Virus record (IMG/VR): IMGVR_UViG_3300020401_000027 | Location: 1 to 43,004 of that record | DNA from: a virus | DNA length: 43,004 nucleotides | Direction: 5' to 3' (one strand) | In this document: piece by piece, positions 9,620 to 23,969 of the stretch | Layout: each line of letters starts with the position of its first letter | Position numbering within the stretch: position 1 is the first letter of the stretch | The notes under the pieces: model-generated | What the model was told of the DNA's origin: nothing | The model's database searches: none | Seen by the model: the letters and a program-made list of their open reading frames with translations, nothing else | Translations under genes and position numbers: made by a program

Positions 9620-10972
9620 ATGAGTGTAACAATGTCACCAACGCCAGCTAATGTACCCATTACGCCAGCGCCGACAAAGTCGACATTATCGACTAACTAC
9701 ATCACTAGCTTTGACTTTTTAAGTCAATATCTACCTGATGTTTATGAAAAAGAATTCGAAAGGTATGGAAATAGATCTATTGCGTCTTTTTTAAGACTAG
9801 TAGGAGCTGAAATACCTTCTAACTCTGACCTTATCAAATGGACAGAGCAAGGACGTTTGCATACAATCGTTAAGAGTGCCACAAGAAGTGGAGAAGTTAT
9901 TACTTCAACTGGTCACCCTTTCAGATTGAATCAAACTGTAATCATTTCTGATGGTACTAACACTGCCAAAGCTTTAATTACTTCTGTAAACGCTAACGGA
10001 AACGCATTTACTGTTTCTGCTTACGGTGCAGCTAATTTAACTGCTGCAGGAATGACTGGAACAACTGGACTAACTGTATTCGTTTATGGTTCTGAATTTA
10101 AAAAAGGAACTAACGGAATGGACGGAAGTTTAGAAGCTAACCCTGTTATCTTCGAAAACAACCCTATTATAATCAAGGACAAGTATGAAGTTGCTGGTTC
10201 TGATTTAGCACAAGTGGGTTGGATTGAAGTTACTACAGAGAATGGAGCTACTGGATATCTATGGTATTTAAAATCTGAGCATGAAACAAGACTACGTTTT
10301 GAAGATTACTTAGAAACTGCTATGGTTGAAGGTGAGCCTGCTGCATCTGGATCAGCTGCTGCGACTGCTGGTTACAATGGTACAAAAGGTTTATTCCATG
10401 AAGTTGAAAATAGAGGAAACGTTGCTACAGGTTCTATTGCTGCAAAAACAGACGTAGAAGCTATTGTAAAAGTTTTAGATAAGCAAGGTGCAATTCAAGA
10501 AAACGTTATTTTCTCTGCTAGAGATAAGTCTTTCGAAATAGACAATATGCTAGCAGCTCAGAATAACTTTGGTTCTTCAGGAGCATCTTACGGTTTGTTT
10601 GACAATGATAAAGACATGGCTTTAAATTTAGGATTTGCTGGATTTAATATTGGTTATGATTTTTATAAAACTGACTGGAAATATCTAAACGATGCTACAA
10701 CTAGAGGAGCAATCGGTGATATCGATGGTATCGTAGTTCCTGCTGGTACTACAACTGTTTATGATCAAGTACTTGGTAAAAACGCTAAAAGACCTTTCTT
10801 ACACGTACGTTTTAGAAAGAGTGAAGCTGAAGACAGAAAGTATAAGACTTGGGTAGTTGGTTCTGCTGGTGGAGCTGGAATGAGTAGCGACCTAGACGCA
10901 ATGCAAGTTCACTTCTTAAGTGAAAGAGCACTATGTGTTATGGGAGCGAATAACTTCGTTATCATGAAGTAA
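9620..10972 (+). CDS. Major capsid protein, crAss-like HK97-fold candidate
   Basis: This 450-residue protein follows the scaffold gene and is the likely major capsid protein. Residues 27-80 (ITSFDFLSQYLPDVYEKEFERYGNRSIASFLRLV, SDLIKWTEQGRLHT) resemble the N-terminal region of crAss-like capsid proteins as I remember them. Residues about 90-160 are beta-rich with Asn/Thr/Gly and may be a surface insertion. The remainder has the mixed pattern expected of HK97 P and A domains and ends in a hydrophobic strand (ALCVMGANNFVIMK). Unlike its neighbours the gene uses many GCT, AAC and GGT codons, consistent with very high expression. A strong terminator follows 9 bases after the stop, so transcription ends or is attenuated here. 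Confidence 0.85.
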   Translation: MSVTMSPTPANVPITPAPTKSTLSTNYITSFDFLSQYLPDVYEKEFERYGNRSIASFLRLVGAEIPSNSDLIKWTEQGRLHTIVKSATRSGEVITSTGHPFRLNQTVIISDGTNTAKALITSVNANGNAFTVSAYGAANLTAAGMTGTTGLTVFVYGSEFKKGTNGMDGSLEANPVIFENNPIIIKDKYEVAGSDLAQVGWIEVTTENGATGYLWYLKSEHETRLRFEDYLETAMVEGEPAASGSAAATAGYNGTKGLFHEVENRGNVATGSIAAKTDVEAIVKVLDKQGAIQENVIFSARDKSFEIDNMLAAQNNFGSSGASYGLFDNDKDMALNLGFAGFNIGYDFYKTDWKYLNDATTRGAIGDIDGIVVPAGTTTVYDQVLGKNAKRPFLHVRFRKSEAEDRKYKTWVVGSAGGAGMSSDLDAMQVHFLSERALCVMGANNFVIMK

Positions 10973-12620: not shown

Positions 12621-13475
12621 ATGAGCACGTCACAACAGTATTATCAAGATTCAACAAAACACGGACAGTATCAGTTTGTAAACATGTCAGATGTGATAAA
12701 TAATTTTATGCTAATGTATGTGGGGGATGAGAAAGTTATAAATGATATACCCAGATATCAAGTTGTACATCATGCTAAAAGAGCAATACAAGAGCTGAAT
12801 TACAACGCCCTTAAAGAGGTGGTTCAAATGGAGATAGAATTAGGATCTAATTTGAAAATAATTATGCCAGAGGATTTTGTACAATTAGTAAAAGTTTCTT
12901 TCATAGATGAATTTGGAAGACTGTATCCTATGACAGAAAACCCTCATAACGCTGTTCCTAAAGCCTTTTTACAAGACAACAATGCAGATTTTACTTTTGA
13001 TAGCGATGGTGCATTACAACAAGGGACAAGCTTATCTGAAACAAGAATGGCTTTAAACCCCACAAAGCACAAAGATATAGACTCTTTAGAAGATGAACAT
13101 TCTGGAGGAAGATATGGGATGGATACAGGTCTTGCTAATAAAAACGGAAGATATTTAATAGATAAAAAATCAGGATTTATTAAATTTAGTTCTGATTTAC
13201 AAGATGGTGATATTATTGTTTTAGAATACATATCAGATGGTTTATTCGGAGGAACAGATACAACAATTAAAATTAATAAACTTGCAGAAGATTATGTTTA
13301 TGCATATCTTCAAGCTGCTATATTAGAAACTAAGTTTGGCGTTCAAGAATATATTGTTAGAAGAACTCAAAAGGCTGCATCAGCAAAATTAAAAAATGCA
13401 AAAATTCGGTTGATGAATATTAATATGGATAATCTGGTACAGCGCTTAAAAGGCAAGAATAAGTGGATTAAGTAA
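12621..13475 (+). CDS. Neck/ring protein of the tail assembly
   Basis: Residues 12-60 (TKHGQYQFVNMSDVINNFMLMYVGDEKVI; RYQVVHHAKRAIQELNYNAL) match a neck-protein family I know from crAss-like and marine phages. In that family a helical N-terminus precedes LPEDFVQLVKVSFID-like strands (here MPEDFVQLVKVSFIDEFGRLYP, about 80-102). Residues 215-284 are helical and basic (VYAYLQAAILETKFGVQEYIVRR, KLKNAKIRLMNI). It is likely one of the stacked rings between portal and tail muzzle. The TAA overlaps the ATG of the next gene (TAATG at 13473-13477), so the two are translationally coupled. Confidence 0.7.
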   Translation: MSTSQQYYQDSTKHGQYQFVNMSDVINNFMLMYVGDEKVINDIPRYQVVHHAKRAIQELNYNALKEVVQMEIELGSNLKIIMPEDFVQLVKVSFIDEFGRLYPMTENPHNAVPKAFLQDNNADFTFDSDGALQQGTSLSETRMALNPTKHKDIDSLEDEHSGGRYGMDTGLANKNGRYLIDKKSGFIKFSSDLQDGDIIVLEYISDGLFGGTDTTIKINKLAEDYVYAYLQAAILETKFGVQEYIVRRTQKAASAKLKNAKIRLMNINMDNLVQRLKGKNKWIK

Positions 13476-16400
13476 TGAAGATAAATAACATCTTCCTATC
13501 AGGCCGCATGAATAAAGATGCGGATGAGCGTATGTTGGAAAAGCATGAATATATACATGCTGAAAACATAAACGTAGCCAATGCTATTGATAGCGATACA
13601 GGAGTTGTAAAAAATACACCAAGAAACTTTTTAGCATATCCAACAGCTCTTTCTTTTACTGGAACTAATCCTAAAACAATTGGTTCAGTCGCCGATGACG
13701 CATCACATAAAATTTATTGGTTTGTTGCAACAGACACTTGTTCTTATATATGTGAGTATAGTAGGTTAGATGAAACTGCATCTATTATATTAGAAGACAC
13801 GAGAACAGGTGATGATAGAGTATTGCGTTTTGATAAAAACAGATATATTCATAGTGCCAAATTAATTATTGACACAGAAAATGAAAGAAAGTTTTTAGTT
13901 TGGACTGATGCTAAAAATCCGCCTAGAAAAATAAATATCGATAGAGCTAAAACCTATGGAGCAAACAATTTTACAGAAAAAGATATTTCTGTAATAAAAG
14001 CTCCACCCATATTTAGTCCTATAGCTAGATTAAGTAATTCTCAGACACAAAAAGAAAACTATATAAAAGATAAATTTATTCAATTTGCATATAGATTTAA
14101 ATATTTAGATGGAGAATATAGTGCATTAAGTCCGTTTAGTAATTATTCTTTTTTGGCTAAAGAATTTTTTTATGACTATGAGCAAGCCACTAACGAATCT
14201 ATGGAAAACGCATTTAATCAAGTTTTAATTACGTTTAAAACTGGAGATGCGAGAGTAACAGACGTAGAGCTTATTTACAGAGAGTCTAAAGGAACAACAT
14301 TATATGTTGTAGAAAAATTTAACAAAACTTTACTTGGTTTAGGCAATGATGAGGATTTTACTTTTAAGTTTTCTAGCCCAAAAGTTAATACAGTTTTAGC
14401 TCCAGATGAAGCAAATAGATTATACGACAATGTTCCTTTGGCTGCAGAGACAATGGAAGTTATAGGAAACAGAATTATTTATGCTAACTATACAGAAAAC
14501 TATAAGCTTTGTCATTACGGAAATGAAGAAATAAAATTTGATTTTACTGTCAATAAGATATCTTATCCTATAGTGTCAGGGGTAGCGCAAAGAAGCGTTA
14601 AGAGTAACAGAAATTATGAGGTGGGCTTGGTTTATGTAGACGAAAACGGAAGAATGTCTACTGTACAAACTTGCGAAGGAAATAATGTGCATGTATCGGC
14701 AGAAGATTCAAAAAACAAAAACACATTACAACTTACAATAAATCATTTAGCTCCATACTGGGCTAAATATTATAGAGCTTTTATAAAAGAAACTGAAACC
14801 ACTTATGATGTAATAACGCCAGTTATATTTCACAAAGACGAAGATTTTGTGTGGGTGAAAATAGAAAAAGCGGATGTAGATAAGGTAAAAGAAGGAGAGT
14901 TTTTGGTTGTTAAATCTGATACTGCTGGTATAAAAGATAAATATGTTGAAACTAAAGTTTTAGAGTTTGATCAAAAAGAAAGGAATTTTTTAGAATCAAG
15001 TAATGTTAATTATATAGCTCAAGAAGAAGGAACATATATAAAATTCAAACCAACTAAATTTTCTATTAATGATTCTAATTATGCAAAAATGCATAGCGAT
15101 AATGCTGATGACACTAGAAATAGATCTGGAGGTCAGACGCCTAGAATCACAAACGAAGCAACAGTAAATTATTTTGAGGGCCCAAATTTTTATGCTACAA
15201 CGGCAAACAGTTTAAACGATCTTATTGTAAGCGGTGCGCCAGCAGGAGTTACGGTAGACCAAAGATTTGAAGTTGTTGTGCAGTCTGATACAGGAGCTGC
15301 AGACAAATTTAAATGGAGAGTTCATGATCCAACAGGTGTTGGAGACTACACAGAAAATGTGACAATGACTACAAGCGCACAAGCTTTAAGTGGAGGATTG
15401 TCAGTTCATTTTTCTGCGACAACAGGGCATACAGTAGGAGACACGTGGTTTATTAATGGTAGAACAGGATGGACTGGATATGATGAAGATACAAGATCAA
15501 ATGTTATATTAAAAGGTTTTGATGGTAACGAAGAGGTGGGGCCAGGATCAATATTTAGAATTCAGTATTTTGAAAGCAAAGGATCTAATACTATATCTCA
15601 CACAGCAAGTTACACGTCATCAAGATCATTTCCAAATATAGAGGAGTTTTGGCATGAAGTTGTAAAAGATGAGATGACAAAATCGGTTCCAGAGGGAAGA
15701 ATTAAATGGAGAAGAGGGGTTTCAACAGACCTACCTTCTGGTGATTATAGGACAAGGGAGCTTGCTATATCAAATAATGTAAACCACGCCATACACATGA
15801 TAATAGAGTCTGACAATGCTCAAGGCGGAAATGTTACAATTAAAATATTTGGAACTACTATATTTGACGAAGAATTAGGTAAAAATGTTTATGCTAATGG
15901 ATCTTGGAATTTTGTTATAAAAGGAGAAGAGGATTCTTTAGTTGTTTTCGAAACGAAACCAAAAGTCAAAAATGATAATATTTATTATGAAATAGGTCAG
16001 ACATATAATATAGATGAAGAAGGATTTCATCAAGGAGCAGACACTGATCAATCGCAAAACGAAGAACAATCAGCCTTGGTTACTATTGATTGGTTTAATT
16101 GTTTTTCTTGGGGCAACGGAATAGAGAGTTTTAAATATAAAGATTCATTTTTAAGCGACTCATTACTTACAAACAATAGGGCGCTTACAAACTATGCTGG
16201 ATATCGAGAAAATAAAAGAATTGCTTCTTTAACTTATAGTGGTGTTTATAATCAAAGCACAAACTATAATGCTTTAAATGAATTTAATTTATCACTTGCA
16301 AACTTTAGAGATTTAGACGACCAGTTTGGTAAGATAATGAAAATAGAGTCTAGAGATACTGACTTAATTGTTTTTCAAGAAAATAAAGTTACAAAAGTTT

Positions 16401-17908
16401 TATTTGGTAAATCTGTTTTAGCAAATCAAGATGGCAGTGAAAATGTAGTGGCATCAGAATCAGTTCTGGGAACACAAGTTCCATTTGTTGGTGAGTATGG
16501 TATATCAACATCAGCTTCTTCTCTAGCAAAATGGTTTAATAACATTTATTTTGCTGACGAAAGACGTGGTGTTGTTATGAGGTTAGGTGGTCAAGGATTA
16601 GAAGAAATATCACAATTTGGAATGAGAGATTGGTTTAGAGAAAATATACGATCTAGAAACCATAAAAAACTTGTAGGAGGATATGATCCTCACAACGATA
16701 ATTATATTCTTTCAATAAAAGATCCTATTATAGAGTGGAGGGAGGATGATTATATTTGTTCGAAAGGAGCAAAAGATTGGAGACCAGATAAATATTATTG
16801 CAAACAAGATTTAGTTCCAATACCTGTTCCAGTACCAGTAGCCCCAACATTTACATGTACTACAGCTTTATTTAATTTGTCAGATGGTACAACTGGAGAT
16901 ACGATTGGAATAGGAACAGATGCTACTGTATCGTTAGGAACTTTAAATAGCGTTAGTCCTGCAACATATCAGTCTGGATCAACTACTTATACAGCGAATA
17001 TTACTGTGCCGTCTGGATATGCAAATGCAGGCGCAACAATTACTACTTGTACAACTACAGCATCAGGAGTTGCAGCACCAACACCATCGCCAACACCAGT
17101 GCCAGTAACTCCACCAACACCTGTTGCACCTCCATCTTGTATAGATTGCCCAGGTGATATAAATTCTATATCAAACTTTAGTGCTACTGCAGGAGATACA
17201 GGAACAATAACTCTTGGTGGAACAAATGTTTCGGTATCTAATGCAACAGCATATAACTTCAACACAAACTTAATATCAGTGAGTGTGTCAGGAGGAACTC
17301 TTAGCTGGACTGCTTTAAGCGCTGGAACTGCACAAGTAAGGGTTATAGCAAGTAATACATCAGGACAAGGAGGCGCAGGAGGTTGTTGTCAAGAATCAGA
17401 AGATTTCTTTGTAACTATAGCCGCTGCACCTGTACCAACAGCGCCAGCAGCAACTTGTAATGATGCTGGATTTACTGTAAGTAACGGAACAACAGGAGCA
17501 GCTGTTTCAGCATCTGTAAATAGTGGATTTACATTGAATAGTGTATCTCCAAGTACTTACACTGCTGGATCTGCAACATATACTGCAAGCATTACGGTTA
17601 ATAGTGCTTCATTTTCAAACAATGGAAGTCAACTTTCACCTCCATGTACTGCAACTGCAACAGGAACTACTGCTCCAACACCACCAACACCAGTACCAGT
17701 AGTTACTTGTACAGATTATGAGATTGCTAATACAGGTGGTTATGGTAATAATACAATAACATATATTCCTTGCTACCAATCAGGTGGACAACCTACAGGT
17801 CAACAGTCAAATACAATCCCTTATGGAGATAGTATAAACAGATGTATTCACCAAATAGTTAGTCAAGGAAGTAACTTAACATTAACAAACAATGGAAGTT
17901 GTCCGTAA
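13475..17908 (+). CDS. Muzzle/tail stabilisation protein with C-terminal Ig-like domains and proline-rich linkers
   Basis: This 1477-residue protein has the N-terminus of crAss-like stabilisation (muzzle) proteins: INNIFLSGRMNKDADERMLEKHEYIHAEN at 3-31, then repeated beta segments including FIQFAYRFKYLDGEYSALSPFS at about 201-222. Residues 1-1095 end at YDPHNDNYILSIKDP, where family members normally continue with a short C-terminal domain. Here the chain instead switches to a Cys/Thr/Pro-rich extension. It holds linker 1113-1125, Ig-like domain A (1125-1200), linker 1202-1222, a different Ig-like domain (1223-1316), domain A' (1327-1400), another linker and a final Cys-rich module (1412-1477). 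The displaced C-terminus seems to be encoded at 23226. The protein probably forms the tail tip tube and carries surface decorations. Confidence 0.75.
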   Translation: MKINNIFLSGRMNKDADERMLEKHEYIHAENINVANAIDSDTGVVKNTPRNFLAYPTALSFTGTNPKTIGSVADDASHKIYWFVATDTCSYICEYSRLDETASIILEDTRTGDDRVLRFDKNRYIHSAKLIIDTENERKFLVWTDAKNPPRKINIDRAKTYGANNFTEKDISVIKAPPIFSPIARLSNSQTQKENYIKDKFIQFAYRFKYLDGEYSALSPFSNYSFLAKEFFYDYEQATNESMENAFNQVLITFKTGDARVTDVELIYRESKGTTLYVVEKFNKTLLGLGNDEDFTFKFSSPKVNTVLAPDEANRLYDNVPLAAETMEVIGNRIIYANYTENYKLCHYGNEEIKFDFTVNKISYPIVSGVAQRSVKSNRNYEVGLVYVDENGRMSTVQTCEGNNVHVSAEDSKNKNTLQLTINHLAPYWAKYYRAFIKETETTYDVITPVIFHKDEDFVWVKIEKADVDKVKEGEFLVVKSDTAGIKDKYVETKVLEFDQKERNFLESSNVNYIAQEEGTYIKFKPTKFSINDSNYAKMHSDNADDTRNRSGGQTPRITNEATVNYFEGPNFYATTANSLNDLIVSGAPAGVTVDQRFEVVVQSDTGAADKFKWRVHDPTGVGDYTENVTMTTSAQALSGGLSVHFSATTGHTVGDTWFINGRTGWTGYDEDTRSNVILKGFDGNEEVGPGSIFRIQYFESKGSNTISHTASYTSSRSFPNIEEFWHEVVKDEMTKSVPEGRIKWRRGVSTDLPSGDYRTRELAISNNVNHAIHMIIESDNAQGGNVTIKIFGTTIFDEELGKNVYANGSWNFVIKGEEDSLVVFETKPKVKNDNIYYEIGQTYNIDEEGFHQGADTDQSQNEEQSALVTIDWFNCFSWGNGIESFKYKDSFLSDSLLTNNRALTNYAGYRENKRIASLTYSGVYNQSTNYNALNEFNLSLANFRDLDDQFGKIMKIESRDTDLIVFQENKVTKVLFGKSVLANQDGSENVVASESVLGTQVPFVGEYGISTSASSLAKWFNNIYFADERRGVVMRLGGQGLEEISQFGMRDWFRENIRSRNHKKLVGGYDPHNDNYILSIKDPIIEWREDDYICSKGAKDWRPDKYYCKQDLVPIPVPVPVAPTFTCTTALFNLSDGTTGDTIGIGTDATVSLGTLNSVSPATYQSGSTTYTANITVPSGYANAGATITTCTTTASGVAAPTPSPTPVPVTPPTPVAPPSCIDCPGDINSISNFSATAGDTGTITLGGTNVSVSNATAYNFNTNLISVSVSGGTLSWTALSAGTAQVRVIASNTSGQGGAGGCCQESEDFFVTIAAAPVPTAPAATCNDAGFTVSNGTTGAAVSASVNSGFTLNSVSPSTYTAGSATYTASITVNSASFSNNGSQLSPPCTATATGTTAPTPPTPVPVVTCTDYEIANTGGYGNNTITYIPCYQSGGQPTGQQSNTIPYGDSINRCIHQIVSQGSNLTLTNNGSCP
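16847..17074 (+). repeat. Ig-like domain A of the muzzle extension
   Basis: The domain contains F-x-L/V-S-x-GTTG, then SVSPATY..GS.TYTANITV, then Cys-Thr near the end. The same pattern recurs at 17453-17674, and each copy is followed by a proline-rich linker containing PTPVPV. This indicates duplication of domain plus linker. Confidence 0.7.
17453..17674 (+). repeat. Ig-like domain A' of the muzzle extension
   Basis: Second copy of domain A: FTVSNGTTG, SVSPSTY, GSATYTASITV, CTATATG, followed by a PTPPTPVPV linker. It is separated from the first copy by an unrelated Ig-like domain. Confidence 0.7.
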
Positions 17909-17927
17909 AAATATATAAACGCATAAT

Positions 17928-18743
17928 ATGGCAAACACAGGAGAAGTAGTTGTAACTAAATTAAGATTGTATGTAGATGGAAACGCTACAAAGACGGTCA
18001 AAAGAAATGCCCCAGGGGATCCTAATTATATTCCTCCATTTCTTGATACAGCTACATGTATTGTAAATGCAACTGCTGTTACTCCTACCCCAACACCAGT
18101 AGCTCCTACACCACCTACTCCAACGGCGCCACAAAACCCTACACCAACACAGTGTTTCTATGAGCAAATTAATGTATCTGCTACAGCGCAAGCCGACACA
18201 AACACTGCTTGTGCTGACACTAATCTTACACAAACGATAAGACATAATTCTACAGCAGCAGCATTTCCTAATTTAGGAACAATAGTATGGACGGATTGTG
18301 GAACCACTACTATTGCTAATGGGTATTATAAAGTTAATGGATCTAATAAAGTTTTTAGAACTAATAATGGATCAATAGTAGCTGTAAATAACTGTATTGC
18401 TTCATCAAACATGCCTTGTACAGGAAAAATAGTAGATGTTTTCTTATCAGAAGGTAAGGATGCAAAAGGAGATTTTTGTACTGGAACATACTCGGTAAAT
18501 CAAACACATCTCTTTGCAGGCGCTACATTAGCTGATGGTTTAAACCAATTTATATGTAAAAATGGTCAAGCTATAAATGGGGAAGGTAAATATTATATTG
18601 TATCTTTAAATCCATATTCAGCAAATCCTTCCCAAAACACCTTCCAATATTGGAGGATAACAGGAACTGGTAAGGTTGTGGAGACTGGAGCTTACGACTG
18701 TTCTACAGGTTCTGGAGGCTCTGGCGGAGGTGAAGCTGTATAA
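17928..18743 (+). CDS. Tail appendage protein with shared N-terminal domain and Thr/Pro-rich linker
   Basis: This 271-residue protein has three parts. Residues 4-44 (TGEVVVTKLRLYVDG to DTATC) are shared with the protein at 22057 (22 identities over 41 aligned residues). Residues 50-76 are a Thr/Pro linker (TPTPTPVAPTPPTPTAP). Residues 78-260 are a Cys-rich beta domain with many Thr, Asn and Gly, ending in a flexible GSGGSGGG tail. It follows the muzzle gene by 19 bases and precedes the modification genes. The common N-terminus is probably a virion attachment domain and the remainder an exposed head group. I do not recognise the C-terminal domain. Confidence 0.6.
   Translation: MANTGEVVVTKLRLYVDGNATKTVKRNAPGDPNYIPPFLDTATCIVNATAVTPTPTPVAPTPPTPTAPQNPTPTQCFYEQINVSATAQADTNTACADTNLTQTIRHNSTAAAFPNLGTIVWTDCGTTTIANGYYKVNGSNKVFRTNNGSIVAVNNCIASSNMPCTGKIVDVFLSEGKDAKGDFCTGTYSVNQTHLFAGATLADGLNQFICKNGQAINGEGKYYIVSLNPYSANPSQNTFQYWRITGTGKVVETGAYDCSTGSGGSGGGEAV
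17937..18059 (+). repeat. Shared N-terminal anchor domain, copy 1
   Basis: Encodes the pattern TGxxVVTKLRxYxxG, VKxNAxGD, YIxPxxD, then Cys. It is duplicated at 22069-22191 on the far side of the three enzyme genes. Confidence 0.75.
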
Positions 18744-18763
18744 ATGAATTTAAATTAAATAAA

Positions 18764-20008
18764 ATGTTACAAATAATCGACTCTTTTTTAAGTGACGAGC
18801 AATGTGATAGTCTTATAGAAATGATAGATAAACACAATGTTCCGTCAAGCGTTTCAGGAACAGGTAGCGAAAGATCTGTTAATAACAACGAATTCAGAAC
18901 TTCTAGCACATGTAATTTAATTAAAGATGATGCTTTAGTTTTGGAAGTAAAACAAAAAATTGCAGATCTCATAGCAAACCCTATCGATATGGGAGAAGAT
19001 TTGCAGGGACAAAAATATGAGCCTGGTCAATTCTTTAAACCACATTACGATTTTTTTGAAGGAGATTCTTACACAAATCACTGTTTAGCATCTGGAAACA
19101 GGACAAAAACAGTAATGATATATTTAAATGATGATTTTAAAGGAGGGGGTACAGATTTTCCTAATATTGACAAGCATATAAAACCCAAAAAAGGATCTGC
19201 TGTAATTTGGGAGAATATGAAAAATGGTGAACTTCAAAAAGACATGCTACATGAGGGAGTTGAAGTCGAAAAGGGATCAAAATATATTGTCACATCTTGG
19301 TGGAGAGAAAATGTGTGGGATCCTTTTTTAGATGATAAATTATCAAAAGAGCACCATCAAACGAAAATAGCTAAAGTAAGATCTTTAAATTCAAAAACAT
19401 TTAGTAGTTATGAAGATCTACCAAGGTTTTCTGAAAGAGGATATGAAGTAATAAAGCTTCCAGACAGCTTATGGAAAACAATTCTTGAGATGTATGAGGA
19501 AGTTAAACCTTTTGAAACAGAAGAACATTTCCCACATAAAAAAAGCGTTATACCATCAGTCAATGAGATTTCTAGTACGTTAATGGATTTAGGAGTCGTT
19601 CAAGAAAAAAGAGATGCGCTACATCAAGCATTAAGACCAATCCACGAGCAGTTTTGTGGTGTAAATTTAGAGCCGACATTTATATACGGAATACGTTCTT
19701 ACTTAAGAGGCTCTGGTCTTGTAAAACATAGAGACAGAATAGAAACGCATCATATATCAGGTATTATTATGGTGGATAGAGATTTAACCTGTGGGTGTGC
19801 AGACAAAAAATTTGCAGATAATTGGCCTTTGGATATACAAGATCATAATGGGATATGGCAAAAAATATTGCTTGAGCCAGGAGAAATGTTATTATATGAG
19901 TCAGCAACATGTGAGCATGGAAGAGAAGAATTGTTTACTGGAACTCATTATAGGAATTTTTTCGTTCATTATAAACTAAAGGACTGGATTTATGAGCCAG
20001 GAAAATAA
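18764..20008 (+). CDS. Tandem two-domain 2-oxoglutarate/Fe(II) dioxygenase (prolyl-4-hydroxylase-like first half)
   Basis: Both halves of this 414-residue protein carry an iron-binding facial triad. Residues 1-185 look like prolyl 4-hydroxylase: YEPGQFFKPHYD gives His94 and Asp96, MLHEGVEV gives His163, and GSKY gives the 2-oxoglutarate-binding Lys173. Residues 215-405 hold a second, divergent oxygenase: YLRGSGLVKHRD gives His322 and Asp324, CEHGR gives His385, and HYRNFFVHY gives Arg397 as the likely 2-oxoglutarate ligand. Such enzymes hydroxylate protein side chains, typically proline, lysine or asparagine. The glycosyltransferase start overlaps its end by 17 bases. An AT-only leader ending AAATAAAATG precedes the start. 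Neighbouring Pro-rich virion proteins are attractive substrates, but this is inference. Confidence 0.85.
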   Translation: MLQIIDSFLSDEQCDSLIEMIDKHNVPSSVSGTGSERSVNNNEFRTSSTCNLIKDDALVLEVKQKIADLIANPIDMGEDLQGQKYEPGQFFKPHYDFFEGDSYTNHCLASGNRTKTVMIYLNDDFKGGGTDFPNIDKHIKPKKGSAVIWENMKNGELQKDMLHEGVEVEKGSKYIVTSWWRENVWDPFLDDKLSKEHHQTKIAKVRSLNSKTFSSYEDLPRFSERGYEVIKLPDSLWKTILEMYEEVKPFETEEHFPHKKSVIPSVNEISSTLMDLGVVQEKRDALHQALRPIHEQFCGVNLEPTFIYGIRSYLRGSGLVKHRDRIETHHISGIIMVDRDLTCGCADKKFADNWPLDIQDHNGIWQKILLEPGEMLLYESATCEHGREELFTGTHYRNFFVHYKLKDWIYEPGK

Positions 20009-21071
20009 GTACATTTCTTTTTCTCCTTGGTGGGGTGGTTGGAATAATCAAAGAATGTCTTATGAAACAGCTGCTGCAATATCAGTTATAACAGGAAGAA
20101 AATTAATATTACCTTATAAAGAATATTGTTTATTTTTTAGTCAACATGAAAATAAATCAACATTTTTAAATGCATGGAATATTTTAGATAAAAATGCGTT
20201 TACAAAAGAATTTGATTGTGTTGATTTTTTTGATGTTCCAGAATACCAAAATTTAGGTAATAATACACATTATTTTTATGGAATTGAAAAAATAGCTAAA
20301 TGTTATTTGTTTCAAGACTACCCATATAAAGATTGGGGACACAATAGAGATCCCTCATCGAGTGAAGTTTTGGTTTGTGATATAGAAAATCAAGAAGACT
20401 TCCAAAATTTTTGTGGAAATAGGCGTGTTTACGACTTAAATGTAGATGATAGATTTATACATTTTCCCAGAAATCTATTTGCTCATTTTTATTATCATGT
20501 GTATGGATCAAATAAAGATGTTAGAAATTTAATTAAAGAAAAGATTGGTAGAGGTGTTGTGTTTAAAAAAGAATATTTTGGTTTAGCAAAAAAAGCTTTG
20601 AATGCTTTAGGAAATTTCAATGCTATACATTTTAGATCAGGAGACTTTAATAACACACATACATCTGACACAAAAAATTTAATACAAAATTTAAAACAGA
20701 TGCTGGACGGAAGGATTCCTAAAGGTTCTAATTTATACATAGCAACTGATGAGGTTAATAAAACTATTTTTGATTCTTTAAGATCTGATTATAAAATATA
20801 TTTTAGGGAAAGTTTTTATAATTTTTTGGATCAATATGAAGCCTTAGCTTTAGACCATATAATACCATCAGAAGCAGATGTTTTTTTAGGCACAAAATGG
20901 AGCACATTTTCTGATGCCATACATATTATGAGAGGGTTTTCTGGCAAAAAAGACTTTAGTAGAGAAGGAATTAATTTTAATTTGCCTAAATTAGATACTA
21001 CGATATTACCTTGGAATCAAGAATCATATCAATGGTTTAATTTATACGATATACATTGGAAAAATGAATAA
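19992..21071 (+). CDS. O-fucosyltransferase-like glycosyltransferase (GT-B, GDP-sugar dependent)
   Basis: This 359-residue protein shows the signatures of the protein O-fucosyltransferase superfamily. GGWNNQRMSYETAAAISVITGRKLILP (15-41) corresponds to the GGxNNQR nucleotide-sugar entry motif. AIHFRSGDF (211-219) is the conserved HxRxGD donor-binding arginine region. LYIATDE (248-254) and FLGTKWSTFS (298-307) match later family motifs. These enzymes transfer L-fucose from GDP-fucose to Ser/Thr or to another sugar. No signal peptide is present, so it acts in the cytoplasm. It overlaps the dioxygenase gene by 17 bases and the epimerase gene by 8, indicating one coupled operon. The donor may be the GDP-L-galactose made by the neighbour. 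The family call is good; the acceptor is unknown. Confidence 0.75.
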   Translation: MSQENKYISFSPWWGGWNNQRMSYETAAAISVITGRKLILPYKEYCLFFSQHENKSTFLNAWNILDKNAFTKEFDCVDFFDVPEYQNLGNNTHYFYGIEKIAKCYLFQDYPYKDWGHNRDPSSSEVLVCDIENQEDFQNFCGNRRVYDLNVDDRFIHFPRNLFAHFYYHVYGSNKDVRNLIKEKIGRGVVFKKEYFGLAKKALNALGNFNAIHFRSGDFNNTHTSDTKNLIQNLKQMLDGRIPKGSNLYIATDEVNKTIFDSLRSDYKIYFRESFYNFLDQYEALALDHIIPSEADVFLGTKWSTFSDAIHIMRGFSGKKDFSREGINFNLPKLDTTILPWNQESYQWFNLYDIHWKNE

Positions 21072-22029
21072 AAACATATTAGTGCTTGGAGGTGGAGGAT
21101 TTATTGGAGGACACCTTGCAAAAAGATTAAAATCAGAAGGGAACTGGGTTAGAGTAGCAGATATAAAAAATGAACCATCTTTTTTCAAAAAAGAAGATAT
21201 ATGTGATCATTATGTAAGTTTAGATTTACGTCACGCTTATGACGTGGATGTTGCTTTTGCAGGAGAAGAATGGGATGAGGTTTATAATTTAGCTGCAGAT
21301 ATGGGAGGTGCTGGATATATATTTACAGGTGAAAATGATTTAGATATAATGAATAACTCTTTACGTATTAATTTAAATGTCATTGATAATTTAAATAATA
21401 GATGTAAAAGATTTTTTTATTCAAGTTCAGCTTGTATTTACCCACAACAAAATCAAACTAATCCAAATAAAAACACTACAGAAGAATCAACGGCATATCC
21501 AGCTAATCCAGATTCAGAGTATGGTTGGGAAAAATTAATTAGCGAAAGGTTGTATTTAGCAGCAAAACGTAATAAAAATATAACAATTAGAATAGCTCGT
21601 TATCATAATGTCTATGGTCCATATGGTGCTTTTAATGATGGAAAAGAAAAAGCTCCTGCAGCTTTATGTAGAAAAGCGATAGAGGGGGATAATGAAATAG
21701 AAATTTGGGGTGATGGAGAACAAACAAGATCTTTTTTATATATAGAAGATTGTCTTGATGCAACAATACAATTTATGAGACAAAATAATTTTTGTGGTCC
21801 AATAAATATAGGCTCAGAACAAATGGTAACTATTAATGGATTGGCTCATGCAGTTATAAAAACATCTGGTAAAGATTTGAAAGTCAAGCATATAGATGGG
21901 CCTTTAGGAGTCAGAGGTAGAAATTCACATAACAAATTGATTTATAAGCTTTTGAAGTGGAAACCAAAATACACTTTGATAGAAGGACTGAAACCAACAT
22001 ATGAGTGGATAAAAAATCAGGTTTGTTAA
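21064..22029 (+). CDS. GDP-mannose 3,5-epimerase-like nucleotide-sugar epimerase
   Basis: This 321-residue extended SDR enzyme has the NAD motif GGGGFIGG (9-16), SSSACIYP (120-127), the Tyr-x-x-x-Lys pair Y153/K157 (SEYGWEK) and KEKAPAALCRKA (194-205). It resembles plant GDP-mannose 3,5-epimerase along its length as I remember that sequence: NLAADMGGAGY, RYHNVYGPYG, IWGDGEQTRSF, NIGSEQMVTIN and GPLGVRGRNS all match. C124 and K196 fall at the catalytic Cys and Lys positions of that family. The reaction converts GDP-D-mannose to GDP-L-galactose (or GDP-L-gulose). L-galactose is L-fucose with a 6-hydroxyl, so a fucosyltransferase-type partner fits well. The start overlaps the glycosyltransferase by 8 bases. 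Confidence 0.85.
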   Translation: MNKNILVLGGGGFIGGHLAKRLKSEGNWVRVADIKNEPSFFKKEDICDHYVSLDLRHAYDVDVAFAGEEWDEVYNLAADMGGAGYIFTGENDLDIMNNSLRINLNVIDNLNNRCKRFFYSSSACIYPQQNQTNPNKNTTEESTAYPANPDSEYGWEKLISERLYLAAKRNKNITIRIARYHNVYGPYGAFNDGKEKAPAALCRKAIEGDNEIEIWGDGEQTRSFLYIEDCLDATIQFMRQNNFCGPINIGSEQMVTINGLAHAVIKTSGKDLKVKHIDGPLGVRGRNSHNKLIYKLLKWKPKYTLIEGLKPTYEWIKNQVC

Positions 22030-22034
22030 TTTAG

Positions 22035-22042
22035 TATCTTTG
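22035..22042 (+). promoter_or_regulatory. TAnnTTTG box after the epimerase gene
   Basis: TATCTTTG lies in the 27-base gap between the epimerase stop and the next start codon, 15 bases before the ATG. It matches the Bacteroidota -7 element and is followed by TAAAA. The -33 element is not evident. Confidence 0.4.
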
Positions 22043-22056
22043 TAAAAAATTACGCG

Positions 22057-23226
22057 ATGTCATTACGGACAGGTCAAAAAGTTGTCACCAAGCTTAGAAA
22101 ATATATTAATGGGTATCCAACTACAGAGGTAAAAGATAATGCTTCAGGAGATGCCGATTATATAGCTCCGTATGTAGATGAAGAGTCGTGTCCAAAATAT
22201 AAAGTCGAAACAGTTGTAACCCCTACACCTGCGCCAGTAGGAAGCGAAGTTGTACCAGCTCCTATAGGTGTAACAGAAGAACCGCCACCAGATCAAAGTA
22301 CTGTTTGCGCACCTTGTTTTACAAGAGATTTACCAGAGAATGAGTGTAGGACATATGAGATTAGTCATCAATATCAATTTAATCAACCAGGAGTTGATCC
22401 AGGATTTATGGATGCAAGTTATTCATACACTAATTGCGAAAACAATGAAATTATTGAAGGGGAGTTAAGTCCTGGTGGCACGGTAAACATAAACAGTTTA
22501 ACAAGACCTGATATAGTTTTTGGTCCAGGTCTTACTATTACAGAAGGTCAGGTAGTTTCAGGCTTTTCTAATATTGATATAAATCAATATCATTATTTGG
22601 CTTCTGGTTGCTATGATTCAGACGATAGGTTTTTAAGATCTACAAGACAATTTAACGTAGGAGATATCGTAAAAACAGCCAACAGTACTTGTTGTTGGGA
22701 AATAATTCAGATTGTAAGTCCAAGACCAGCATACAATATTATATACAACTCAAGCAGTGATGTATATGCAAGTTGCACAACTTGTTGTGACTTAGCTTCA
22801 CCAGCAAGCACTTATGGTCAAGAACCAAGCGGATCTGCTGAAATAACTGGAGGTAATGTAACTTTATCTCATAGTGTTGGACAAGCGTTTTCGAGAGTCA
22901 AGGTCTTCCAAGTAAGCAACACAGGTACTGTAGAAATAAAACTAACTGTACAATTAACAACAGGAAATTATATAAATGCGGCTGCCAGAGTCAAAAAAAG
23001 CGATGGTTTAACTAAAAATGCTATTGTAGAATTCCCTCAACACAGAAGCTCAAGAGTTTTAAATTATGTTGAAAACAAAGCAACAAGATATGGTGGTACA
23101 GGAAGTGATGTAGTTGAAACAAAAACAGTAAAATTAGAGGCAGGAGTATATAGGGCAGAGATAGATCCGTTGGTCGCAAGCAGTAATGCTTTTGGATCAG
23201 CAACTTTAACAATAAATACAAAATAA
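22057..23226 (+). CDS. Tail appendage protein with shared N-terminal domain, second paralogue
   Basis: This 389-residue protein begins with the same roughly 41-residue domain as the one at 17928 (TGQKVVTKLRKYINGY to DEESC). A shorter Pro-rich linker (VTPTPAPVGSEVVPAPIG, about 53-70) follows. Residues 83-250 are Cys-rich, with several Cys-Cys or Cys-x-x-Cys pairs (CAPC, CC, CTTCC). The last about 135 residues look like a beta-sandwich (GSAEITGGNVTLSH, VKVFQVSNTG, KTVKLEAGVYRAEI). A C-x-x-YEI module near residue 106 recurs at the end of the muzzle protein. It is probably attached to the tail tip. Its TAA overlaps the next ATG (TAATG at 23224-23228). Confidence 0.6.
   Translation: MSLRTGQKVVTKLRKYINGYPTTEVKDNASGDADYIAPYVDEESCPKYKVETVVTPTPAPVGSEVVPAPIGVTEEPPPDQSTVCAPCFTRDLPENECRTYEISHQYQFNQPGVDPGFMDASYSYTNCENNEIIEGELSPGGTVNINSLTRPDIVFGPGLTITEGQVVSGFSNIDINQYHYLASGCYDSDDRFLRSTRQFNVGDIVKTANSTCCWEIIQIVSPRPAYNIIYNSSSDVYASCTTCCDLASPASTYGQEPSGSAEITGGNVTLSHSVGQAFSRVKVFQVSNTGTVEIKLTVQLTTGNYINAAARVKKSDGLTKNAIVEFPQHRSSRVLNYVENKATRYGGTGSDVVETKTVKLEAGVYRAEIDPLVASSNAFGSATLTINTK
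22069..22191 (+). repeat. Shared N-terminal anchor domain, copy 2
   Basis: Second copy of the domain found at 17937-18059. The protein similarity (22 of 41 aligned residues identical) is much clearer than the DNA similarity, so the duplication is not recent. Confidence 0.75.
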
Positions 23227-23969
23227 TGGCAGAAAATACAATATCATATAGTCACTCAGCAAAAGGGTTTCCAACTTTTCATAGTTTTATTCCAGATTGG
23301 ATTGAAAATTTAAATGATTCTTTTTTTACTTTTAAAGATGGACAGCTATATATCCATCATATTATCGAAAATCAAAGAAACAATTATTATGGTGTTGACT
23401 GCAGCAGTGTGTTGGAATTTGCTGCCAATGAAGGTCCATCTGACATTAAAATGTTTCGTGCAATAAAAACCGAAGGGAATAGTAATAACTGGGATGTTAC
23501 TGTTGAGACGGAAAATGAAAAAGGTTTTGTAAATAAAGATATGTTTCAGAAAAAAGAAGGATTTCATTATGGATATGTTAGAAATGAAAACACTTCAGTT
23601 GATTATAAAAAATTAAGCGTTCAAGGTTTAGGAACTTGTGCATCATCAACATCTACAACTGTTACTGTTACAGGTTTAAATCCTGGTATAGTTTCCGTAG
23701 GAGACAATATTTATCAAGCAACTGTTTCAGGGGAAACTATAGGAACACCAGCTTTGTTAGGCACTATAAGCTCTATATCTGGAGATGTAATTACACATGG
23801 TGGATCAACTGCAGCAACGGCAAGTAATTTCATTTTGTTTGCTAAAAATCAAACTGCAGAGTCTGAAGGAGTGAGAGGTTATCATGCGAAAATAAAACTT
23901 ACTAATAACAGCACTAGCCCAGTGGAGCTGTATAAGGTAGATTCTGAAGTTACAAAGAGTAACTTGTAA
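23226..23969 (+). CDS. Detached C-terminal segment of the muzzle/stabilisation protein, plus extension
   Basis: Residues 4-115 (NTISYSHSAKGFPTFHSFIPDWIENLNDSFFTFKDGQLYIHH, RNNYYGVDCSSVLEFAANE, KMFRAIKTEGNSNNWDVTVET) look, from memory, like the C-terminal domain that in related stabilisation proteins directly follows the YDPxNDxYxLSI segment. In this phage that segment ends the core of the gene at 13475, and this domain is a separate 247-residue protein some 6 kb downstream. Residues 135-200 are a Thr/Ser/Gly-rich beta insertion (TSTTVTVTGLNPGIVSVGDNIY), and the last 40 residues form further strands. It starts at an ATG overlapping the previous stop. Association with the muzzle protein in the virion is expected. 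Confidence 0.6.
   Translation: MAENTISYSHSAKGFPTFHSFIPDWIENLNDSFFTFKDGQLYIHHIIENQRNNYYGVDCSSVLEFAANEGPSDIKMFRAIKTEGNSNNWDVTVETENEKGFVNKDMFQKKEGFHYGYVRNENTSVDYKKLSVQGLGTCASSTSTTVTVTGLNPGIVSVGDNIYQATVSGETIGTPALLGTISSISGDVITHGGSTAATASNFILFAKNQTAESEGVRGYHAKIKLTNNSTSPVELYKVDSEVTKSNL

Follow-up and report, generated by a model that had tools for sequence, protein, structure and literature searches.

A candidate phage cassette for proline hydroxylation and glycosylation of proline-rich virion linkers

What might three enzyme genes be doing among the tail genes of a crAss-like phage? The question is raised by the stretch of DNA analysed here (the window), a 43,004-base virus record of such a phage, probably a marine one. 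The window leads from the terminase, the portal and ring-like structural proteins to the muzzle and then to replication genes on the minus strand. A search for near-identical DNA among phage records gave no match, and the cultured phages closest by their muzzle have Maribacter, Cellulophaga, Tenacibaculum and Flavobacterium as hosts. The features of the window described below are all on the plus strand. The muzzle, a tail-tip protein of 1477 aa (13475..17908; PF25731 at 2.2e-17, phrog_14478 at 1e-247), is followed by an ORF for a putative tail protein of 271 aa with linker-bearing orthologues (17928..18743) and by the cassette itself (18764-22029). The latter consists of a two-domain 2OG-Fe(II) oxygenase (18764..20008), a POFUT-like glycosyltransferase of the O-fucosyltransferase family (359 aa; 19992..21071) and a GDP-mannose 3,5-epimerase (GME, 321 aa; 21064..22029). 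Overlaps of 17 nt and 8 nt between the ORFs, together with the domain matches, confirm the adjacent, overlapping enzyme genes beside the muzzle that an initial annotation had described. Downstream are an ORF for a putative tail protein of 389 aa (22057..23226), whose N-terminus resembles that of the 271-aa protein, and the muzzle C-terminal domain as a gene of its own (23226..23969; PF25729 at 1.5e-9, phrog_18548 at 2e-41). In other words, the cassette is located inside a split muzzle region. The C-terminal domain is fused to the muzzle in the cassette-less phages phi40:1, Gundel and elemoA, and has its own gene in Panino and phi13:2. Because of this genomic placement, the virion is the apparent target of the cassette. 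Our main reading, to which we assign a probability of roughly 0.7, is that the phage modifies its own virion, the predicted function being hydroxylation of linker prolines and glycosylation of the linkers.

The linkers in question are composed of AP, TP, VP and SP dipeptides. Four of them lie in the C-terminal extension of the muzzle (16808-16852, 17072-17134, 17426-17455 and 17672-17701); their maximum of 10 prolines per 20 residues was reached in 0/2000 shuffles of the muzzle, so that the four linkers noticed earlier are real. The linker of the 271-aa protein (TPTPTPVAPTPPTPTAPQNPTPT; 18081-18149) has up to 9 prolines per 20 residues, a density likewise reached in none of 2000 shuffles of that protein. 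In the 389-aa protein the linker (22219-22290) is weak, with 6 prolines per 20 residues that recurred in 107 of 2000 shuffles; in its orthologues the linkers are stronger. Thus, of the two flanking linker-bearing virion proteins previously proposed, the 271-aa protein clearly has its linker, but the 389-aa protein has a weak one. Family searches identified neither ORF, and it is from their position and shared N-termini that we infer both to be virion proteins.

The oxygenase has two halves. Statements specific to either half are based on single-sequence searches, since profiles built from whole fused proteins were cross-contaminated. The first half (aa 1-190; PF13640 match of the gene product at 4.6e-17) matches solved prolyl 4-hydroxylases (P4Hs) at 7e-28. 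The top Foldseek match of its predicted model is 3gze, an algal P4H crystallised with (Ser-Pro)5, and the other top matches are P4Hs as well. Its iron/2OG residues H94, D96, H163 and K173 align with those of the algal enzyme and are invariant in 25 homologues. The same invariance holds for R45, S47, E78, F91, R113 and W179, which correspond to R93, S95, E127, Y140, R161 and W243 of the algal P4H, positions that we take to form the groove for proline-rich peptides; five of the six are identical, the exception being Y140, replaced by F. By family, fold and sites this half is a prolyl 4-hydroxylase, for which hydroxylation of peptidyl proline is predicted. The second half (aa 215-414) shares homology with a 2OG protein of a cyanophage and has conserved H322, D324 and H385. 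The initial annotation was right about the P4H-like half and left the other unassigned; the latter is a separate oxygenase domain. It is also matched by phrog_2954 and phrog_3531, labelled ferrochelatase, and this label looks like a mis-annotation.

The transferase matches PF10250 at 1.4e-15 and a POFUT2 profile at 3e-12. Its AF2 model (pLDDT 93.8) retrieves POFUT2 and POFUT1 in Foldseek with E-values of about 1e-10, and H213, R215, D218, S304 and T305 are invariant in the alignment. Family, predicted fold and motif residues, which it shares with POFUT1 and POFUT2, bear out its earlier designation as O-fucosyltransferase-like, but identity to them is about 15%, and no EGF or TSR target domains were recognised in the neighbouring phage proteins. 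It is the only transferase of the window, in which neither PF11397 nor PF23452 was found. Two pattern-based scans of bacterial and archaeal genomes, which may miss distant relatives, gave no relative of this enzyme and hence no trace of a cellular origin. As for the epimerase, the proposed identity is firmly supported by a match of 2e-82 to Arabidopsis GME in the PDB and by an alignment with the plant enzyme through the SSACIYP, EYGWEK and GKEKAPAA motifs. The presence of GME beside the transferase suggests GDP-L-galactose as the predicted donor of the latter. However, GME is not the fixed part of the cassette that it had been taken for. In the close relative L004 its place is occupied by a protein of 194 aa, probably another oxygenase, in which an HxD...H...K pattern is conserved, and elsewhere GME is optional: among 33 crAss-like cassettes the epimerase is present in 21, the L004-type protein in 11 and both in none. 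Being optional, GME was set aside as a key component. The L004 protein (10192-10776) belongs to a family of 181-194 aa with conserved H110, D112, H174 and K184 and without a Pfam match, which in many relatives stands where the epimerase would be and is possibly a new family of 2OG oxygenases.

The association between cassette and linkers was assessed from both sides. Starting from the enzymes, and counting as Pro-rich any ORF with at least 9 prolines in 20 residues and no PPPP run, we found such an ORF in 43/44 crAss-like cassette loci, as the initial annotation, which had proposed this co-occurrence search, anticipated. The controls gave 0/18 for loci with P4H only, 0/6 for GT only, 0/46 for muzzles lacking the cassette and 0/8 for cyanophage glyco-islands. 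When 48 muzzle loci were collected blind to the cassette, by the muzzle core and regardless of enzymes, strict xP repeats were found in 3/3 cassette loci versus 0/43 others (Fisher p 6.6e-5, the rows not being independent), and two loci having PF11397 alone carry Pro-rich linkers of a looser kind. Six cassette changes fall on the muzzle tree, at least two of these being forced, and the linkers change likewise in nearly all pairings; near-copies inflate these counts, and the two supported pairs are too few for a significant sign test. A cassette without Pro-rich tail proteins had been named as a refuting observation, and here the picture is ambiguous. L086 and L140 are fragments in which no linkers are visible. 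In the cyanophage S-SCSM1 the genes for a 2OG enzyme (PF13640), an O-FucT and the second oxygenase are arranged in a row. Islands of this type are located away from linkers, yet two S-SCSM1 proteins encoded elsewhere, SSCSM1_19 and SSCSM1_217, have Pro-rich linkers and are annotated as belonging to the virion. The published reading for S-SCSM1 and T4-like cyanophages is a different one, the 2OG genes being regarded as metabolic and such transferases as modifying the cell wall (PMC9602691, PMC3037559). Accordingly, the cassette might remodel host surface glycans (LPS or capsule) or host metabolism, with the linkers being incidental, and polysaccharide synthesis does also use GME and carbamoyltransferases. 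We nevertheless consider this improbable, as the cassette is embedded in the structural operon, abuts linker-bearing tail genes in unrelated phages and changes together with the linkers, while its transferase families are protein-directed.

The unrelated phages just mentioned show several arrangements. In one, a tail protein with VPVPVP/PTPTP repeats is followed after 12 bp by P4H-OG2 and then, with a 4-bp overlap, by a 276-aa HPAT-family gene (PF23452, matched by 5/6 members of the 276-aa family, weakly and at best at 2e-6). All nine retrieved HPAT loci with enough upstream sequence have the order Pro-rich protein, P4H-OG2 or the second oxygenase alone, HPAT. In L249 no linker is within reach, and a P4H-like gene lies downstream of the HPAT gene. 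L109, L112 and L113 have O-FucT 2 bp after the Pro-rich protein and P4H 8 bp after O-FucT. Apart from this, the linker-bearing tail proteins differ between phage types, the enzymes and the linker being what they have in common. Modules near tail genes are often exchanged jointly, and neither the second oxygenase nor the alternative one has an assigned substrate, so the enzymes could modify other residues of tail proteins, the Pro-rich linkers simply co-travelling in a mobile tail-tip module. That seems unlikely to us given that the linker is the feature shared by otherwise different tail proteins and that the closest fold is a hydroxylase of Pro-rich peptides with a conserved groove.

Gene order is kept in close crAss-like relatives, and the enzymes themselves vary. 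The cassette recurs in a second crAss clade (muzzle identity 55%), where the linker repeats differ and the transferase is fused to PF11397 (Skp1-Gnt1 family, GT60). PF11397 is fused or adjacent in 17/33 crAss-like cassettes, and other relatives have it as a separate gene together with a carbamoyltransferase, sometimes fused; the PF11397 set, searched as a profile among solved structures, gave no match. L075 (11253-13823) joins the O-FucT domain and an entire carbamoyltransferase (PF02543 + PF16861) in one protein, which suggests carbamoylation of the sugar. A 305-aa gene of L045 (14085-15002), located between the muzzle and a Pro-rich protein and weakly matching PF03407, is a possible further glycosyltransferase. 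Six crAss cassettes lack the P4H half. The cassettes of L116, L117, L119, L120, L141 and L152 have the second oxygenase alone, with no P4H half seen and the linkers still present, a hint that linkers may be a substrate of the second half. In L010 the transferase accompanies PTPTP linkers, and no PF13640 oxygenase was detected in 111 kb; hydroxylation is therefore perhaps not required, and the hydroxylation-dependent L-sugar of the initial annotation stays conjectural. L010 also fits a variant of our main reading, which allows hydroxyproline or Thr/Ser as acceptor. In this variant the enzymes would act on the linkers independently, prolines being hydroxylated for stiffness and Thr/Ser in TP/SP being glycosylated in a mucin-like manner, with hydroxyproline free of sugar. 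Known POFUT-family members do act on Ser/Thr, and GT60 includes a Thr/polypeptide-directed enzyme of Trypanosoma cruzi that is not hydroxyproline-specific (PMC6939170). However, the same cassettes contain the HPAT and Gnt1-like families, whose names refer to hydroxyproline acceptors, and Thr/Ser are scarce in many linkers, which consist of VP/AP repeats. On balance we regard independent action as possible but doubtful.

Several known systems resemble the one proposed here. The Skp1 pathway of Dictyostelium and Toxoplasma (PhyA, Gnt1 of GT60, PgtA) likewise has a cytoplasmic P4H followed by glycosyltransferases, and the Gnt1 family PF11397 is present in the relatives of the window; it differs in modifying a single site on a ubiquitin-ligase subunit, whereas repetitive linkers are proposed for the phage, and the window itself has no PF11397. 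The plant and algal pathway for hydroxyproline-rich glycoproteins (P4H, HPAT) shares the P4H fold, AP/TP/SP/VP repeats, the HPAT family found in phage relatives and a plant-like GME. Yet it acts on wall proteins in the secretory pathway and not in the proposed bacterial cytoplasm, and the transferase of the window is POFUT-like. The prolyl 4-hydroxylase of chlorovirus PBCV-1 is virus-encoded, a close structural match and reported to be active on proline-rich viral peptides; PBCV-1, however, is a eukaryotic virus without a linker glycosylation cassette, and an amino-acid analysis of its virions, as cited in a review, detected no hydroxyproline. Glycosyltransferases of mycobacteriophages are thought to modify virion proteins, and we know of no prolyl hydroxylase partner or association with Pro-rich linkers described for them. 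If a hydroxyproline glycosylation pathway is defined as a P4H plus a hydroxyproline glycosyltransferase, the window has the P4H, with no match to PF11397 or PF23452, and relatives have PF11397, as well as PF23452 in 5/6. As the initial annotation supposed, the searched literature, which stops short of most subscription journals and preprints, gave no account of a phage system like this. The cassette is likely to represent a hydroxyproline-type glycosylation of virion linkers that is phage-encoded and new, its function being predicted.

From the genes, predicted folds, catalytic residues and co-occurrence we infer an activity, acceptor, sugar, order of steps and benefit as follows. During late expression, and in the cytoplasm, the P4H half would hydroxylate the repeat prolines (AP/TP/VP/SP) of the C-terminal muzzle linkers and of the tail proteins beside them, and the second oxygenase half may target the same linkers. 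The POFUT-like enzyme would then add a GDP-activated L-sugar to the linkers, either on hydroxyproline or on neighbouring Thr/Ser, the donor being GDP-L-galactose where the epimerase is present and otherwise probably GDP-L-fucose. Related phages would swap or add GT60/Gnt1-like and HPAT-like transferases and a carbamoyltransferase. The linkers at the tail tip would thereby become stiff, resistant to proteases and coated with sugar. That the phage modifies its own tail linkers, as first proposed, is strongly supported by the co-occurrence, the muzzle tree, the unrelated phages, the hydroxyproline-type transferase families and the P4H fold, with the activity being predicted.

Many marine phages thus have, beside tail proteins with Pro-rich linkers, enzymes that look built to hydroxylate prolines and then to glycosylate, a protein modification in the style of plants and protists. 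It is tempting to see here a modular, phage-specific hydroxyproline O-glycosylation of virion linkers, spread over several unrelated lineages and made of enzyme families otherwise typical of eukaryotes, and we would give this broader view even odds. If true, it would be the first phage-encoded hydroxyproline-type glycosylation within the searched literature and could serve to armour tail tips or to tune them. The 2OG oxygenases of marine phages, for which host metabolism is the usual explanation, also gain a role that can be tested.
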